A stretch of DNA of 64,000 nt from an uncultured Bacteroides sp. (lineage in GTDB: Bacteria; Bacteroidota; Bacteroidia; Bacteroidales; Bacteroidaceae), in contig CASENM010000027.1 in NCBI GenBank assembly GCA_949289295.1, positions 100,823-164,822 of the forward strand. The letters run 5' to 3'. Each line of letters opens with the position of its first letter. Position 1 is the first letter of the stretch. Under the pieces are notes generated by a model. The model did no database searches, was not told where the DNA came from, and worked only from the letters and a program-made list of their open reading frames with translations. The position numbers and the translations under genes were made by a program. Shown here one piece after another: positions 51,467 through 57,797 of this stretch.

Positions 51467-51506
51467 TGTGCGGAGAGGCACGGATATGCCGTGTCTGCTC
51501 CGCACA
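51467..51506 (+). terminator. terminator after phosphoglucomutase
   Basis: Nested inverted repeat, TGTGCGGAG with CTCCGCACA on the outside and CACGG with CCGTG inside, followed by TTTTTTG. Confidence 0.85.
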
Positions 51507-51609
51507 TTTTTTGTGTCCGTATCCGGTGCCGGATTGTCTGATAAACTGACAATAAATGACCTTGGTTACTTACGAATGATAATTTATTTGAAAAAAAAGT
51601 ATCATTTTA

Positions 51610-51640
51610 TTTGTTTGTTTCAAAAAAGCCTTTACCTTTG
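51610..51640 (+). promoter_or_regulatory. promoter of the ilv operon leader
   Basis: -33 TTTG at 51610-51613, 19-nt spacer, -7 TACCTTTG at 51633-51640. Transcription should start near 51647, just before the leader peptide, and about 190 nt ahead of ilvD. Confidence 0.88.
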
Positions 51641-51661
51641 CGAATATAAATGATAAGAGAT

Positions 51662-51757
51662 ATGAACGCAACTCATACATTGGTCAATCTGGAAGTCCTG
51701 CATATTATTCGCGTCGTGGTCGTGGCACCAAGGGGTGAGGGGGCTTCGTGTATGTAG
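51662..51757 (+). CDS. ilv operon leader peptide
   Basis: A 31-codon ORF in the leader of the ilv operon. Eleven of codons 7-21 specify Leu, Val or Ile: LV.L.VL.II.VVVV, with Ile-Ile at 51704-51709 and four Val at 51713-51724. An in-frame ATG at 51650 would give 35 residues, but it is only about 3 nt from the expected transcript start. The ORF ends TAG at 51755-51757. Its composition and position, between a strong promoter and a terminator hairpin, mark it as a regulatory leader peptide read by the ribosome to sense charged branched-chain tRNAs. The peptide itself probably has no function. Confidence 0.82.
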   Translation: MNATHTLVNLEVLHIIRVVVVAPRGEGASCM

Positions 51758-51812
51758 TCGCATTGAATGATATTGGATGGAAGCCTTTCTCACCGGATGA
51801 TGAGAGAGGCTT
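51736..51812 (+). promoter_or_regulatory. ilv attenuator: antiterminator and terminator hairpins
   Basis: The terminator stem is AAGCCTTTCTC (51781-51791) with GAGAGAGGCTT (51802-51812), one G-U pair and a 10-nt loop, followed by TTTAATT. The left arm can instead pair with GTGAGGGGGCTT (51736-51747): GGCTT with AAGCC, two G-U pairs and GTGAG with CTCAC, with one bulge. A ribosome stalled on the Ile/Val codons leaves 51736-51747 free and favours read-through. A ribosome reaching the stop at 51757 covers it and favours termination before ilvD. Confidence 0.8.
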
Positions 51813-51835
51813 TTTAATTGAAAAATATGGTAAAG

Positions 51836-53638
51836 ATGAAACATCAGTTACGCAGTTCGATGAGTACGGAAGGCCGCCGGATGGCCGGGGCACGTGCCCT
51901 GTGGGTGGCCAATGGAATGAAAAGGGAAATGATGGGGAAACCTATCATCGCGATAGTCAATTCGTTTACTCAGTTTGTGCCGGGGCATACCCACCTGCAT
52001 GAGGTGGGCCAGCAGGTGAAGGCCGAGATTGAGAAGCTGGGATGCTTTGCGGCTGAGTTCAACACGATAGCCATCGATGACGGCATCGCCATGGGGCACG
52101 ACGGAATGCTGTATTCGCTTCCATCGCGCGACTTGATAGCAGATAGCGTGGAATACATGGTAAACGCGCACAAGGCGGATGCGATGGTCTGCATCTCGAA
52201 CTGTGACAAGATTACTCCGGGAATGCTGATGGCCGCCATGCGTTTGAACATTCCTACAGTGTTCGTGTCGGGAGGACCGATGGAAGCGGGAGAATGGGAC
52301 GGACAGCATCTTGACCTGATTGACGCGATGATCAAGTCGGCCGATCCTACGGTGAGCGACGAGGACGTGGCTCAGATTGAGTGTCATGCCTGTCCGGGAT
52401 GCGGTAGTTGCTCGGGAATGTTCACCGCCAATTCCATGAACTGCCTGAATGAGGCCATCGGACTGGCTCTTCCGGGTAACGGCACTGTTCTTGCCACTCA
52501 TGTTAACCGCAGACGGTTGTTTGAGGACGCGGCACGACTGATTGTGAAGAACGCTTACAAATATTATGAGGAAGGCGATGAGAGTGTGTTGCCGCGTAGT
52601 ATCGCTACCCGTCAGGCATTCCTGAATGCCATGACACTTGATATAGCGATGGGAGGTTCCACCAATACGGTGCTCCATCTGCTGGCTATCGCCCACGAAG
52701 GTGAAGTCGACTTCAAGATGGATGACATCGACATGCTTTCGCGCCGGGTGCCTTGTCTGTGTAAGGTGGCCCCCAACACGCAGAAATACCATATACAGGA
52801 CGTGAACCGTGCCGGAGGCATCCTGAACATTCTCGGTGAACTGGACAAGGGAGGACTGCTTGACACGTCAGTGAGCCGTGTCGACGGAATGACCTTGGCC
52901 GAAGCCATCGCCAGATACAGTATCTGTAAGCCCGACATCGACCCCGAAGCCAGACGCATTTATTCGAGTGCGCCGGGCGGAAAATTCAGTATAGAGATGG
53001 GTTCCCAGCAGGAGACTTGTCGGGAACTTGACACGGACCGTGCCGCCGGGTGTATCCGCGACCTGCAGCATGCGTACAGCAAGGACGGAGGGCTGGCCGT
53101 GCTGAAAGGGAACATCGCTCAGGACGGATGTGTGGTCAAGACCGCCGGAGTGGACGAAAGCATCTGGAAGTTCTCCGGTCCTGCCAAAGTGTTCGATTCA
53201 CAGGAGTCGGCTTGCGAAGGCATCTTGGGCGGAAAGGTGGTGAGCGGCGATGTGGTGGTCATCACGCACGAAGGTCCGAAAGGAGGGCCGGGTATGCAGG
53301 AAATGCTTTATCCCACCTCTTATATAAAGTCGAAGCATCTGGGCAAGGAATGCGCGCTGATTACCGACGGGCGTTTCAGTGGCGGCACCTCAGGGTTGAG
53401 CATCGGACATATTTCTCCCGAGGCGGCGGCTGGCGGTAATGTCGGGAAGATTGTGGACGGAGACATTATAGATATTGACATCCCGAACCGTTCTATCAAT
53501 GTGAGATTAAGTGACGAGGAACTGGCCGCAAGGCCGATGGCTCCGTTGACGCGCAATCGGGAAGTGTCGAAGGCGTTGAGAGCGTACGCAAGCATGGTAA
53601 GCTCTGCCGACAAGGGAGGAGTAAGGATTGTGGAATAA
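51836..53638 (+). CDS. ilvD: dihydroxy-acid dehydratase IlvD
   Basis: Iron-sulfur dehydratase of valine and isoleucine synthesis, 600 residues from ATG 51836 (MKHQLRSS); an ATG at 51827 is also in frame. The conserved segments are [42 protein letters not shown] (cluster cysteines), [11 protein letters not shown], and the end [16 protein letters not shown]. It is the first structural gene after the attenuator. ilvB starts 16 bp after its stop. Confidence 0.96.
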
Positions 53639-53654
53639 TGTAAAACAGGAATAT

Positions 53655-55349
53655 ATGAAAGAAAGAATAACAGGTTCTGAGGCGTTGATGCGTTCGCTGG
53701 AGCACGAAGGGGTAAAGACCATCTTCGGTTATCCGGGCGGTGCCATCATGCCGGTCTTTGATGCTTTATATGACCATCTTGACAGACTTAATCATATTCT
53801 GGTGCGTCATGAACAGGGAGCGGCTCATGCGGCCCAAGGTTTTGCCCGTGTGTCGGGACAGGTGGGCGTATGTCTGGTGACGAGCGGTCCGGGTGCTACC
53901 AATACGATTACCGGTGTGGCCGATGCCATGATAGACAGTACGCCGATTGTGGTGATTGCCGGCCAGGTGGGTGCCGGACTGTTGGGCACGGATGCGTTTC
54001 AGGAAGTGGACCTGGTGGGAGTGACCCAGCCTATCTCCAAGTGGAGTTATCAGATTCGTAGGGCGGAAGATGTGGCTTGGGCGGTGGCCCGTGCGTTCTA
54101 TATCGCGCGGAGCGGACGTCCGGGGCCGGTCGTGCTTGACTTTACAAGAAATGCCCAGACCGAGTTGGCTGATTATGAACCGGTAAGTCTGGATTTTATC
54201 CGCAGTTATGATCCTGATCCGGAAACTGACCCGAAGATGGTGGCCGAAGCGGTACGTCTTATCAACGAGGCGCAGAAGCCTTTGGTGCTTGTCGGTCAGG
54301 GAGTGGAGTTGGGTAATGCGCAGGAAGAGTTGAAGGTATTTGTGGAGAAGGCCGATATGCCTTGCGGATGCACTTTGCTGGGGCTTTCCGCCTTGCCGAG
54401 CAATCACCGGTTGAATAAGGGTATGCTGGGTATGCATGGTAATCTCGGTCCGAATGTGAAGACCAACGAATGCGATGTACTGATAGCCGTGGGCATGCGC
54501 TTTGATGACCGTGTGACGGGCAAGCTGGAGACGTATGCCAAGCAGGCGAAGGTGATTCATCTGGATGTTGATCCGTCGGAAATCGGGAAGAATGTGCCGG
54601 TGGACGTGCCGGTGCTGGGGAATTGCAAGCGTACTCTGGCTTTGCTGACTGAACTGATTCAGCCGCATAAGCATACGGAATGGATTGAGAGCTTCAAGCC
54701 TTATGAGGAGAAGGAGTTCGAGCAGGTCATCCGGAAGGAGGTCTATCCGGAAAGCGGTCCGATCAATATGGGTGAGGTGGTGCATGCCGTGAGCGAGGCG
54801 ACCCGTAACGAGGCGATACTGGTGACCGATGTGGGTCAGAATCAGATGATGGCGTGTCGTTATTTCAGCTTCTCGAAGAAGCGGAGCATCGTGACTTCCG
54901 GTGGTATGGGAACGATGGGCTTTTGTCTGCCGGCATCTATCGGTGCCACATTCGGTTGTCCCGGCCGTACGGTATGCGCGTTCATGGGCGACGGTGGTTT
55001 GCAGATGACCATGCAGGAGCTGGGTACGGTGATGGAACAAAAGGCTCCGGTAAAGATTATTTTGCTCAACAATAATTATCTGGGCAATGTGCGTCAGTGG
55101 CAGGCCATGTTCTTCAACCGCCGCTATTCGTTCACGCCGATGATGAACCCGGATTACATGCAGATAGCTGCCGCCTACGGCATTCCTTCGCGGAGAGTGA
55201 TGGAACGTGGTGATCTGGGGGATGCCATTCAGGAGATGCTGGCCACTGATGGGCCCTTCCTGCTTGAAGTCTGTGTGGTAGAGGAAGGAAATGTGCTTCC
55301 GATGACACCTCCGGGAAGTTCAGTCAATTATATGTTAATGGAATGTTGA
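53655..55349 (+). CDS. ilvB: acetolactate synthase large subunit
   Basis: ThDP- and FAD-dependent acetohydroxyacid synthase catalytic subunit, 564 residues. The catalytic glutamate is E53 in VRHEQGAAHAAQG, the FAD-region motif is TSGPGATNTITGVADA, and the ThDP motif is MGDGGLQMTMQEL followed by LNNNYLGNVRQWQ. The start is ATG 53655 (MKERITGS); a GTG inside the ilvD end is in frame but unlikely. ilvN follows after 12 bp. Confidence 0.97.
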   Translation: MKERITGSEALMRSLEHEGVKTIFGYPGGAIMPVFDALYDHLDRLNHILVRHEQGAAHAAQGFARVSGQVGVCLVTSGPGATNTITGVADAMIDSTPIVVIAGQVGAGLLGTDAFQEVDLVGVTQPISKWSYQIRRAEDVAWAVARAFYIARSGRPGPVVLDFTRNAQTELADYEPVSLDFIRSYDPDPETDPKMVAEAVRLINEAQKPLVLVGQGVELGNAQEELKVFVEKADMPCGCTLLGLSALPSNHRLNKGMLGMHGNLGPNVKTNECDVLIAVGMRFDDRVTGKLETYAKQAKVIHLDVDPSEIGKNVPVDVPVLGNCKRTLALLTELIQPHKHTEWIESFKPYEEKEFEQVIRKEVYPESGPINMGEVVHAVSEATRNEAILVTDVGQNQMMACRYFSFSKKRSIVTSGGMGTMGFCLPASIGATFGCPGRTVCAFMGDGGLQMTMQELGTVMEQKAPVKIILLNNNYLGNVRQWQAMFFNRRYSFTPMMNPDYMQIAAAYGIPSRRVMERGDLGDAIQEMLATDGPFLLEVCVVEEGNVLPMTPPGSSVNYMLMEC

Positions 55350-55361
55350 TTCAGTCAGGAT

Positions 55362-55913
55362 ATGGAAAATAAGTCATTATATACGATAATTGTTCATTCT
55401 GAGAATATTGCGGGTACGTTGAATCAGATAACAGCCGTGTTCACCCGCCGGCAGATTAATATTGAGAGTCTGAATGTGTCCGCTTCTTCCATCAAGGGAG
55501 TGCATAAATACACGATTACCTGCTGGACTACGGCAGATATTGTGGAAAAAGTCGTGCGTCAGATGGAGAAGAAGATTGACGTGATACAGGCACATTATTT
55601 CACGGACTCTGAGATTTTCCAGCGTGAGGTGGCCATGTATAAGGTCTCGATGCCGGAGTTCCAGTCGAATCCGGAGGCATCGAAAGTGGTACGCCGTGCC
55701 AGTGCGCATATCGTGGAGGTGAATCCTGTTTTTGCCATTGTGGAGAAGGTGGGAATGAGCGATGAGATTACGGCGCTTTACCAGAACCTGAAGGATTTGA
55801 ACTGCGTGTTGCAGTTTGTCCGTTCGGGGCGTATCGCCGTGTCGACAAGCTGTTTTGAGCGTGTCAATGAGTATTTGGCACATCGTGAGGAACGTTACCG
55901 GAACGGAAAATGA
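55362..55913 (+). CDS. ilvN: acetolactate synthase small subunit
   Basis: Regulatory subunit, 183 residues. An N-terminal ACT domain (about 5-78: YTIIVHSENIAGTLNQITAV, RQINIESLNVSASS) binds valine, and a C-terminal ferredoxin-like domain follows. It controls feedback inhibition of IlvB. The length is typical of the ilvN/ilvH group. An acyl-ACP thioesterase gene follows after 43 bp. Confidence 0.95.
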   Translation: MENKSLYTIIVHSENIAGTLNQITAVFTRRQINIESLNVSASSIKGVHKYTITCWTTADIVEKVVRQMEKKIDVIQAHYFTDSEIFQREVAMYKVSMPEFQSNPEASKVVRRASAHIVEVNPVFAIVEKVGMSDEITALYQNLKDLNCVLQFVRSGRIAVSTSCFERVNEYLAHREERYRNGK

Positions 55914-55956
55914 GAGTGAGGACGGATTTTGACGATTTATTGATTGGAATACATAT

Positions 55957-56700
55957 ATGGCAGAAGATAATAAAGTAGGGACTTATCAGTTCGTGGCAGA
56001 ACCGTTTCATGTGGATTTTACGGAACGCCTCACGATGGGGGTGTTGGGTAACCATCTGTTGAATTGCGCGGGATTCCATGCCGCAGAGCGTGGTTTCGGC
56101 ATCGCTACACTGAACGAGAACCATTATACTTGGGTATTGTCGCGTCTGGCCATTGAACTGGAGGATATGCCCAGGGCCTATCGGAAGTTCAGCATACAGA
56201 CGTGGGTGGAGAATGTGTACCGCCTGTTCACTGACCGCAATTTCGCTATCCTGAACGAGGAAGGGAACCCCGTGGGATATGCCCGTTCGGTCTGGGCGAT
56301 GATCAGTATGGAGAGTCGGAAGCCGATTGACTTGCTGACTTTGCACGGAGGGGCGATTACGGACTACATCTGCGATAAGGAATGCCCCATCGCCCGTCCC
56401 GGAAGAATCAAGGTGGACGAAAGTGAGCCGGTGTGTGAGTATCAGGCCAAGTACAGCGACATTGACATCAACGGGCATGTCAACAGCATCAAGTATATCG
56501 AACATATCTTGGATCTGTTTCCTATGGAAATGTTCCGTGAGAAGTCGGTCCGTCGTTTTGAGATGGCTTACGTGGCAGAAAGCTATTATGGTGACCTGTT
56601 GACTTTTTATAGGGAGCAGAAAGCCGAGAACGAATACGATATAGAGGTGAAGAAGAACAATGCGGAAGTAGTTGTTCGAAGTAAAGTGATATTCAATTAA
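55957..56700 (+). CDS. acyl-ACP thioesterase
   Basis: A 247-residue double-hotdog thioesterase of the FatA/FatB-like family (PF01643 type). The first hotdog starts with FHVDFTERLTMGVLGNHLLN, and the second has the catalytic-region motif YSDIDINGHVNSIKYIEHIL. It would release free fatty acids from acyl-ACP. It lies inside the ilv operon, between ilvN and ilvC (53 bp upstream of ilvC). Branched-chain keto acids from this pathway prime the branched fatty acids of Bacteroides, so the pairing may be functional, but this is inference. Confidence 0.88.
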   Translation: MAEDNKVGTYQFVAEPFHVDFTERLTMGVLGNHLLNCAGFHAAERGFGIATLNENHYTWVLSRLAIELEDMPRAYRKFSIQTWVENVYRLFTDRNFAILNEEGNPVGYARSVWAMISMESRKPIDLLTLHGGAITDYICDKECPIARPGRIKVDESEPVCEYQAKYSDIDINGHVNSIKYIEHILDLFPMEMFREKSVRRFEMAYVAESYYGDLLTFYREQKAENEYDIEVKKNNAEVVVRSKVIFN

Positions 56701-56753
56701 CAAATATATTCAATTAACAGGCGGCTCCGGCCGCGTAAAAAGATTGTACGAAA

Positions 56754-57797
56754 ATGGCACAAATGAATTTTGGAGGGGTTATCGAGAATGTGATAACCCG
56801 TGAGGAATTTCCATTGGAAAAGGCACGTGAGGTATTGAAAAATGAGACCATCGCTGTGATCGGCTATGGCGTTCAGGGACCGGGTCAGTCGTTGAACCTG
56901 CGTGACAACGGTTTCAATGTGATTGTCGGACAGCGTCCGGGAAAGACTTACGAGAAGGCTGTGGCCGACGGATGGGTTCCGGGTGAGACATTGTTCAGCA
57001 TTGAAGAGGCATGTCAGAGAGGTACCATCATCATGTGTCTGCTTTCTGATGCGGCCGTGATTTCTGTATGGCCGACCATCAAGCCGCAACTTACCGCAGG
57101 CAAGGCTCTCTATTTCTCACATGGCTTCGCGATTACGTGGAACGACCGTACGGGTGTGGTTCCTCCGACAGATATTGATGTGATTATGGTAGCTCCGAAA
57201 GGTTCGGGTACTTCCTTGCGTACCATGTTTCTGGAAGGCCGTGGCCTGAACTCTTCGTATGCAATCTATCAGGATGCTACAGGAAAGGCATACGACCGTA
57301 CCATTGCTTTGGGAATCGGCATCGGCTCAGGATATCTTTTTGAAACCACTTTCCAGCGTGAGGCTACTTCCGATCTGACCGGTGAGCGTGGCTCGCTGAT
57401 GGGAGCCATCCAGGGACTTTTGCTGGCCCAGTATGAGGTGTTGCGCGAAAACGGACATACTCCTTCGGAAGCTTTCAATGAAACTGTGGAAGAACTGACT
57501 CAGTCATTGATGCCGCTGTTCGCAAAGAACGGTATGGACTGGATGTATGCCAACTGCTCCACTACTGCACAGCGTGGCGCGCTCGACTGGATGGGCCCGT
57601 TCCACGATGCCATCAAGCCAGTGGTACAGAAGCTGTATGAAAGCGTGAAGTGCGGGCACGAGGCTCAGATTTCCATCGACAGCAACTCGAAACCAGATTA
57701 TCGCGACAAGTTGAATGCCGAATTGAAGGCGTTGCGTGAAAGCGAGATGTGGCAGACTGCAGTCACTGTCCGCAAGCTCCGTCCGGAGAACAATTGA
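56754..57797 (+). CDS. ilvC: ketol-acid reductoisomerase
   Basis: Class I KARI, 347 residues. The N-terminal dinucleotide motif is AVIGYGVQGPGQSLNLRD (about 32-49) followed by the cofactor-specificity loop VGQRPGKTYEKA. The C-terminal knotted domain carries SDLTGERGSLMGAIQGL and CSTTAQRGALDW. The specificity loop is not the usual NADPH type I remember from E. coli, so the cofactor should not be assumed. It is the last gene of the ilv operon, and a large hairpin element follows. Confidence 0.95.
   Translation: MAQMNFGGVIENVITREEFPLEKAREVLKNETIAVIGYGVQGPGQSLNLRDNGFNVIVGQRPGKTYEKAVADGWVPGETLFSIEEACQRGTIIMCLLSDAAVISVWPTIKPQLTAGKALYFSHGFAITWNDRTGVVPPTDIDVIMVAPKGSGTSLRTMFLEGRGLNSSYAIYQDATGKAYDRTIALGIGIGSGYLFETTFQREATSDLTGERGSLMGAIQGLLLAQYEVLRENGHTPSEAFNETVEELTQSLMPLFAKNGMDWMYANCSTTAQRGALDWMGPFHDAIKPVVQKLYESVKCGHEAQISIDSNSKPDYRDKLNAELKALRESEMWQTAVTVRKLRPENN

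Follow-up and report, generated by a model that had tools for sequence, protein, structure and literature searches.

A putative Ile/Leu/Val transcription attenuator upstream of the ilvD operon in a Phocaeicola-like genome, with covarying counterparts in other Bacteroidales

The 64,000-nt stretch of DNA analysed here, hereafter the window, comes from a 2.85-Mb genome that is Phocaeicola-like, its IlvD being 89-92% identical to the IlvD of named Phocaeicola contigs. The locus of interest contains a cluster of genes for branched-chain amino acid synthesis that begins with ilvD, preceded by a promoter, a short open reading frame (ORF) and several segments of RNA predicted to pair with each other. 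The features, all on the plus strand, are the following.

51610..51640, + strand: Bacteroides-type promoter as read from the sequence, with the -33 element TTTG at 51610-51613, a spacer of 19 nt and the -7 element TACCTTTG at 51633-51640
51662..51757, + strand: leader peptide ORF of 31 codons, MNATHTLVNLEVLHIIRVVVVAPRGEGASCM, with ATG at 51662-51664 and TAG at 51755-51757; homologous ORFs in relatives
51680..51724, + strand: control codons, 11 Leu/Val/Ile among codons 7-21; composition kept in relatives
51692..51699, + strand: segment 1, putative protector GAAGTCCT, which in folds is able to pair with 51740-51747 and so mask the antiterminator arm
51735..51747, + strand: segment 2, predicted 5' arm of the antiterminator, GTGAGGGGGCTTC, from duplex energy and pairing counts
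51780..51793, + strand: segment 3, predicted arm common to antiterminator and terminator, GAAGCCTTTCTCAC, from duplex energy, alignment and pair counts
51781..51812, + strand: predicted intrinsic terminator hairpin, with arms 51781-51791 and 51802-51812 and a T-run at 51811-51815
51836..53638, + strand: ilvD, dihydroxy-acid dehydratase (NF009103, TIGR00110), starting at ATG 51836 or 51827
53637..57797, + strand: remaining genes of the likely operon, namely ilvB, ilvN, the gene of an acyl-ACP thioesterase and ilvC, from gene order and identities; co-transcription is a prediction

A first-pass annotation of this DNA had proposed a complete ilv attenuator, and direct reading confirmed its 31-codon ORF with 11 branched-chain codons within codons 7-21, namely Leu7, Val8, Leu10, Val12, Leu13, Ile15, Ile16 and Val18-21. 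The predicted terminator falls between this ORF and the first structural gene, ilvD. The promoter announced there as a consensus one is indeed present, and TTTG-19 nt-TACCTTTG matches what we take to be the Bacteroides promoter consensus rather than that of E. coli. Transcription would start near 51646-51649. In 62 of the 69 leaders considered, the window included, the -7 motif TANNTTTG stands no more than 60 nt ahead of the leader start, versus 3.2% of shuffles. An alternative in-frame ATG is found at 51650, four codons before the leader start and nearly at the predicted transcription start, so that a near-leaderless initiation is possible; the start of the leader in L002 aligns with 51662.

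Conservation of the leader was evaluated on the regions upstream of ilvD, 161 in all: that of the window, those of 80 titled contigs (some non-Bacteroidota) and 80 stretches from genomes of the family, picked out of the 137 in which ilvD was matched when 151 were searched. One region of 127 nt (L075) was too short, and 160 were counted. Thresholds of 8, 9, 10 and 11 Ile/Leu/Val per 15 codons were reached or exceeded by a short ORF in 99, 87, 67 and 31 of the 160 regions, respectively; for dinucleotide shuffles the figures were 17.5%, 5.4%, 1.4% and 0.3%, and for the reverse strands 23, 9, 1 and 0 of the 160. In the Bacteroides and Phocaeicola rows the peptide resembles INLAVLHIIRVVVV, and rows farther away keep the Ile/Leu/Val composition in a different residue order, which points to selection on the amino acid content of the leader. 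Codon differences in the leader frame of 25 alignable leaders, counted over pairs that are not independent, were 828 synonymous and 929 non-synonymous, with 279/1222 and 160/1343 in the other two frames; among random single changes, 28% are synonymous. By its composition and position, the ORF may thus be described as a putative leader that abounds in codons for the end products of the biosynthetic operon downstream of it.

These data also bear on the question of whether the region is instead a riboswitch, binding a metabolite or a tRNA in the manner of a T-box, with the 5' ORF being incidental. In Firmicutes, genes of the branched-chain synthesis class are under T-box control, and such systems likewise use a terminator/antiterminator pair. 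A riboswitch is nevertheless extremely improbable here, as the 5' half of the element is kept as an Ile/Leu/Val-rich peptide whose exact sequence varies between families, the leader frame carries an excess of synonymous changes, and no Rfam family, Bacteroid-trp, T-box and other riboswitches included, matched positions 51500-51900 up to E=1. At the gathering level, Rfam matches in the whole window were three tRNAs only.

We then turn to the predicted RNA structures. The stem of the window terminator has a dG of -18.9 kcal/mol, in agreement with the hairpin at 51781-51812 proposed earlier; a simple terminator scan listed none at this locus, because the loop is 10 nt long and the limit of the scan is 8. 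The competing antiterminator had likewise been proposed, overlapping the end of the ORF, and its arm 51735-51747 forms with 51780-51793 a duplex of -23.6 kcal/mol that 0 of 200 shuffles equalled. A hairpin followed by a T-run, mostly of the form GCCTTTCTC-loop-GAGAAAGGC, was observed downstream of 84 of the 87 ORFs scoring at least 9, a few of these hairpins being weak. From these 87 regions, the three without a terminator and seven rejected by eye as non-leaders or weak terminators were removed, and among the 77 kept, 70 have an antiterminator duplex between the shared arm and a segment near the ORF end with p<=0.05 against shuffles.

Covariation was quantified in a plain, sequence-only MAFFT alignment of 65 distinct rows, five duplicates among the 70 passing leaders being omitted. 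In the terminator, 95.9% of cells are paired and 9 of 11 pairs are changed on both sides, with 35 double-changed cells versus a shuffle mean of 7.1, and on every measure 0 of 500 shuffles were as high. In the antiterminator, 89.6% of cells are paired, a percentage biased upward because the rows were pre-selected for pairing; 8 of 12 pairs are changed on both sides, a number reached by 2 of 500 shuffles, and 32 cells are double-changed versus a shuffle mean of 6.5, with 0 of 500 shuffles as high on the other measures. Shifting the partner by one column lowers the pairing to 58-75% for the terminator and to about 56% for the antiterminator. In several rows, for instance L012, L038 and L064, all three arms differ together, and the T's 3' of the terminator stem are nearly invariant in the alignment. 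Both stems covary, and the predicted antiterminator, located near the ORF end, would be mutually exclusive with the terminator. We also considered whether the core could come from a generic terminator and rejected this, the pattern AAGCCTTTC...GARAGGCTT occurring once in the genome. The terminator upstream of leuA in the same genome misses this pattern by one outer base only and shares the inner core GCCTTTC...GAAAGGC, so that the terminator core is not unique to ilv.

The spacing of these elements was measured in 70 leaders. The control codons end a median of 10 nt before the antiterminator arm (4 to 16 nt in 69 of 70, and -6 in one), and the stop codon finishes, in most of them, roughly 4 or roughly 24 nt beyond the antiterminator start. 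With such spacing, a ribosome stalled on the last control codons would therefore expose the antiterminator arm, and one that has reached the stop codon would hide it, which supports the geometry of ribosome-mediated attenuation put forward by the first-pass annotation. One of its figures has to be corrected: the last codon of the Val run closes at 51724, which is 10 nt and not 12 nt before the arm.

Folding of the window with the upstream RNA masked gave the antiterminator for a stalled ribosome, and the terminator both for a ribosome at the stop codon and for no ribosome. Across the 70 leaders, the window included, every fold gave the terminator when the ribosome was placed at the stop codon, and 68 did so with no ribosome; when the RNA was masked up to the antiterminator, as for a stalled ribosome, the minimum-energy fold was the antiterminator in 15 and the terminator in 55. 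Because these equilibrium folds select the antiterminator in only 15 of 70, the order of folding must matter, and in the folding model most relatives would need the antiterminator to form first and to persist long enough. The antiterminator core pairs with an upstream segment in 65 of 70 leader folds, in the window GAAGTCCT at 51692-51699 with 51740-51747; the consensus fold of 28 leader rows (28 aligned out of 33 leaders; 6 pairs, -0.65 kcal/mol) does not contain this protector stem.

Could the region be no more than an ordinary 5' UTR, in which an ORF arose by chance and a terminator acts constitutively, or could it encode a small RNA that ends near 51815? Short ORFs are frequent by chance, and the fold of the window leader is not unusually stable (z -1.52 in one test and z +0.38 in another). 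Conservation, the covariation of both stems and the kept spacing argue against such an arrangement, to which we give hardly any credence.

To follow the element across the order, a covariance model, R1, was built from the ilvD leader rows. R1 matches 79 of 198 Bacteroidales genomes (E<=0.01, strict filters). Among the matches listed, the best loci of 30 genomes all precede ilvD (23) or leuA (7), some of these loci, the window's own included, being training rows; twenty further chosen sites lie before leuA (12), ilvD (5), gltB (2) and one other gene. When 15 genomes were searched more loosely, another 21 loci were listed (L222-L242), of which 13 contain ilvD, leuA or gltB; the others are one weak ilvD-like stretch and seven without ilvD, leuA or gltB (one of them, L226, before ilvB), so that weak R1 matches must be considered unspecific. 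When 87 loci were searched again with R1, 11 matched, 10 of them adjoining ilvD. In the genome of the window, two R1 matches have E<1, at ilvD (2.9e-7) and at leuA (0.0018). A scan of the phylum with R1 gave matches in 44 of 198 genomes at E<=0.01, with E of 2e-4 to 0.01 outside this genome; many of these resemble plain terminators, and they served only to spot candidates. The window's type of IlvD was found at E<=1e-200 in 4 of 119 genomes of the class, all four inside the order.

Within the family, the element is present in 41 of 80 regions and 16 of 29 genera, four found by R1 only. The branched-chain codons and the two alternative stems, whose conservation in relatives had been proposed as a check, both recur in many Bacteroidales, with the stems covarying, and about half of the sampled family regions are without them. 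The genera without the element are probably Prevotella-like; several Prevotella-titled contigs are without it.

Some relatives carry the element twice. A serial double ilv attenuator is predicted before ilvD in L186 (1501-1754; E 1.2e-6 and 4.5e-6), and two serial units precede ilvD in L062, L069 and L071 (Marinifilum, Labilibaculum and a Marinifilaceae contig), where the upstream unit is the weaker one (E 0.003 to 0.02). Such tandem units leave the first unit far from ilvD, and this argues against control at the level of translation, in which leader and hairpins would chiefly set access to the ilvD start codon and not transcription. The near invariance of the T's after the stem points in the same direction, as does the fact that the covarying pairs involve the shared arm and not the start site. 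The ilvD starts at 51827 and 51836 are only 11-20 nt past the T-run end at 51815, so the same switch could also mask the ribosome site; as the chief mode of control, however, we consider translation very unlikely.

Taken together, the ilvD-ilvB-ilvN-(thioesterase)-ilvC operon is very probably preceded by a classical ribosome-mediated transcription attenuator. The basis for this reading is anatomy, conservation, covariation and geometry, from which we infer ribosome-polymerase coupling, termination and a response to amino acids. In the proposed mechanism, RNA polymerase would begin near 51647, with a ribosome trailing through the leader ORF. When charged Val, Ile and Leu tRNAs are abundant, the ribosome would reach the stop codon at 51755 and cover the antiterminator arm 51735-51747, the hairpin 51781-51812 would form and transcription would end near 51815. 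When charged tRNAs are scarce, the ribosome would stall in codons 15-21, sitting on segment 1 and leaving 51735-51747 free to pair with 51780-51793 upon its emergence, so that the terminator would be blocked and ilvD transcribed.

Attenuators of this class are familiar from the enterobacterial ilvGMEDA and ilvBN operons, in which the Ile/Val/Leu-rich leader peptides IlvL and IvbL, a terminator and an antiterminator control ilv expression. The ilvD leader resembles them, by their general descriptions, in leader peptide, terminator and antiterminator, and differs in phylum, promoter type and operon (ilvD-B-N-TE-C). A 2004 comparative paper by Vitreschak et al. reportedly predicted candidate attenuators in Bacteroidetes/Chlorobi, and priority for some Bacteroidetes attenuators may belong to that work. 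The suggestion that the element is undescribed for this organism has to be read with that prediction in mind; it holds for Rfam, as given above, and for the full-text literature searched, most subscription journals lying outside, where no description of an ilv or leu leader in Bacteroidales was found.

The Corynebacterium ilvBNC attenuator, likened here by description only, also places a leader ORF and hairpins before ilv genes, in Actinobacteria (PMC11857589, PMC10272879), and in Staphylococcus aureus, a member of the Firmicutes, a leucine-rich attenuator peptide is a branched-chain leader peptide that controls branched-chain amino acid synthesis, working, according to the title of the report, alongside CodY (PMC5794164). 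Closer in phylogeny, the Rfam family RF01692, Bacteroid-trp, is the Bacteroidetes Trp leader (Weinberg et al. 2010, PMC2864571), which like the ilvD leader is a leader-peptide RNA of Bacteroidetes, is built on Trp instead of Ile/Leu/Val and does not match the ilv region. A B. thetaiotaomicron transcriptome paper, in whose main text the term 'ilv' was not found, mentions short ORFs that bring leader peptides to mind (PMC7366714). This kind of attenuation is therefore already known, both in its classical form and as Bacteroid-trp in Rfam, and the ilvD leader is a newly found case. Annotation likely misses it, since the usual gene callers pass over an ORF of this length and no Rfam family matches; for specialists, the surprise is limited, the mechanism being textbook. 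The findings offer a concrete, testable set of RNA switches that would govern how common gut bacteria make branched-chain amino acids, and the ilvD leader would be a natural assay of ribosome-polymerase coupling in Bacteroidota.

Besides leuA, already matched by R1, three other amino acid operons of the same genome were inspected for similar leaders. Before leuA, a leader MNTLFIHILLNGLIILLEKPVGSGTCV (L193, G000:C12, 85207-85299, minus strand), with 2-isopropylmalate synthase next, has a terminator of -18.2 kcal/mol and is built like the ilvD attenuator. A recent duplication of one ilvD/leuA module was considered and rejected: over 19 genomes, the identity between the two leaders within a genome is 0.524 (all columns) and 0.816 (stem), not above that of permuted pairs (0.535 and 0.827), and 4457 and 4378 of 5000 permutations, respectively, were at least as high. 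The core of the leuA leaders is biased toward similarity because they were found with the ilvD-derived model. Directly upstream of hisG lies a His-rich ORF, MIYTSAHHRHHHYLTVQTVG (HHRHHH), with a strong terminator of -24.4 (L277:746-872, G000:C16), a probable his attenuator. Upstream of trpB, a Trp-Trp ORF and a terminator of -23.8 (L278, reverse strand, about 1151-1344 of the reverse complement, G000:C40) overlap a sub-threshold match to RF01692 (39.4 bits, gathering score 49). Before thrA (aspartate kinase/homoserine dehydrogenase), a 29-aa ORF with several Thr is accompanied by a weak hairpin of -9.6 (L276:245-384, G000:C27).

Drawing on these ilv, leu, his, thr and trp candidates, on gltB, and on candidate leaders for Thr, Trp, Ile and Cys/Met from other parts of the phylum, we find it reasonably likely, with room for doubt, that Bacteroidales use leader-peptide attenuation as the standard way of controlling amino acid synthesis, and that some lineages have serial double ilv attenuators. 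If true, this would imply tight coupling of transcription and translation in Bacteroidota, a phylum in which translation mostly starts without Shine-Dalgarno pairing.

Some further observations were made at related sites. About 200 nt ahead of the trpB leader there is another ORF, rich in Tyr and His. The R1 matches before gltB (glutamate synthase) come from two genomes of one related family (L199, L202), and the short ORFs at these sites contain several His and Lys. Candidate leaders with fitting residues (Trp runs, Thr/Ile, Ile runs, Cys/Met) were seen before other amino acid genes: trpE (L245, L247 and L258, the label at the last two being a reading of the sequence), thrA (L251) and ilvE (L250), together with L252, with cysH 447 nt downstream, and L226, with ilvB 278 nt downstream; L226 is inside the order and the other six are outside it.
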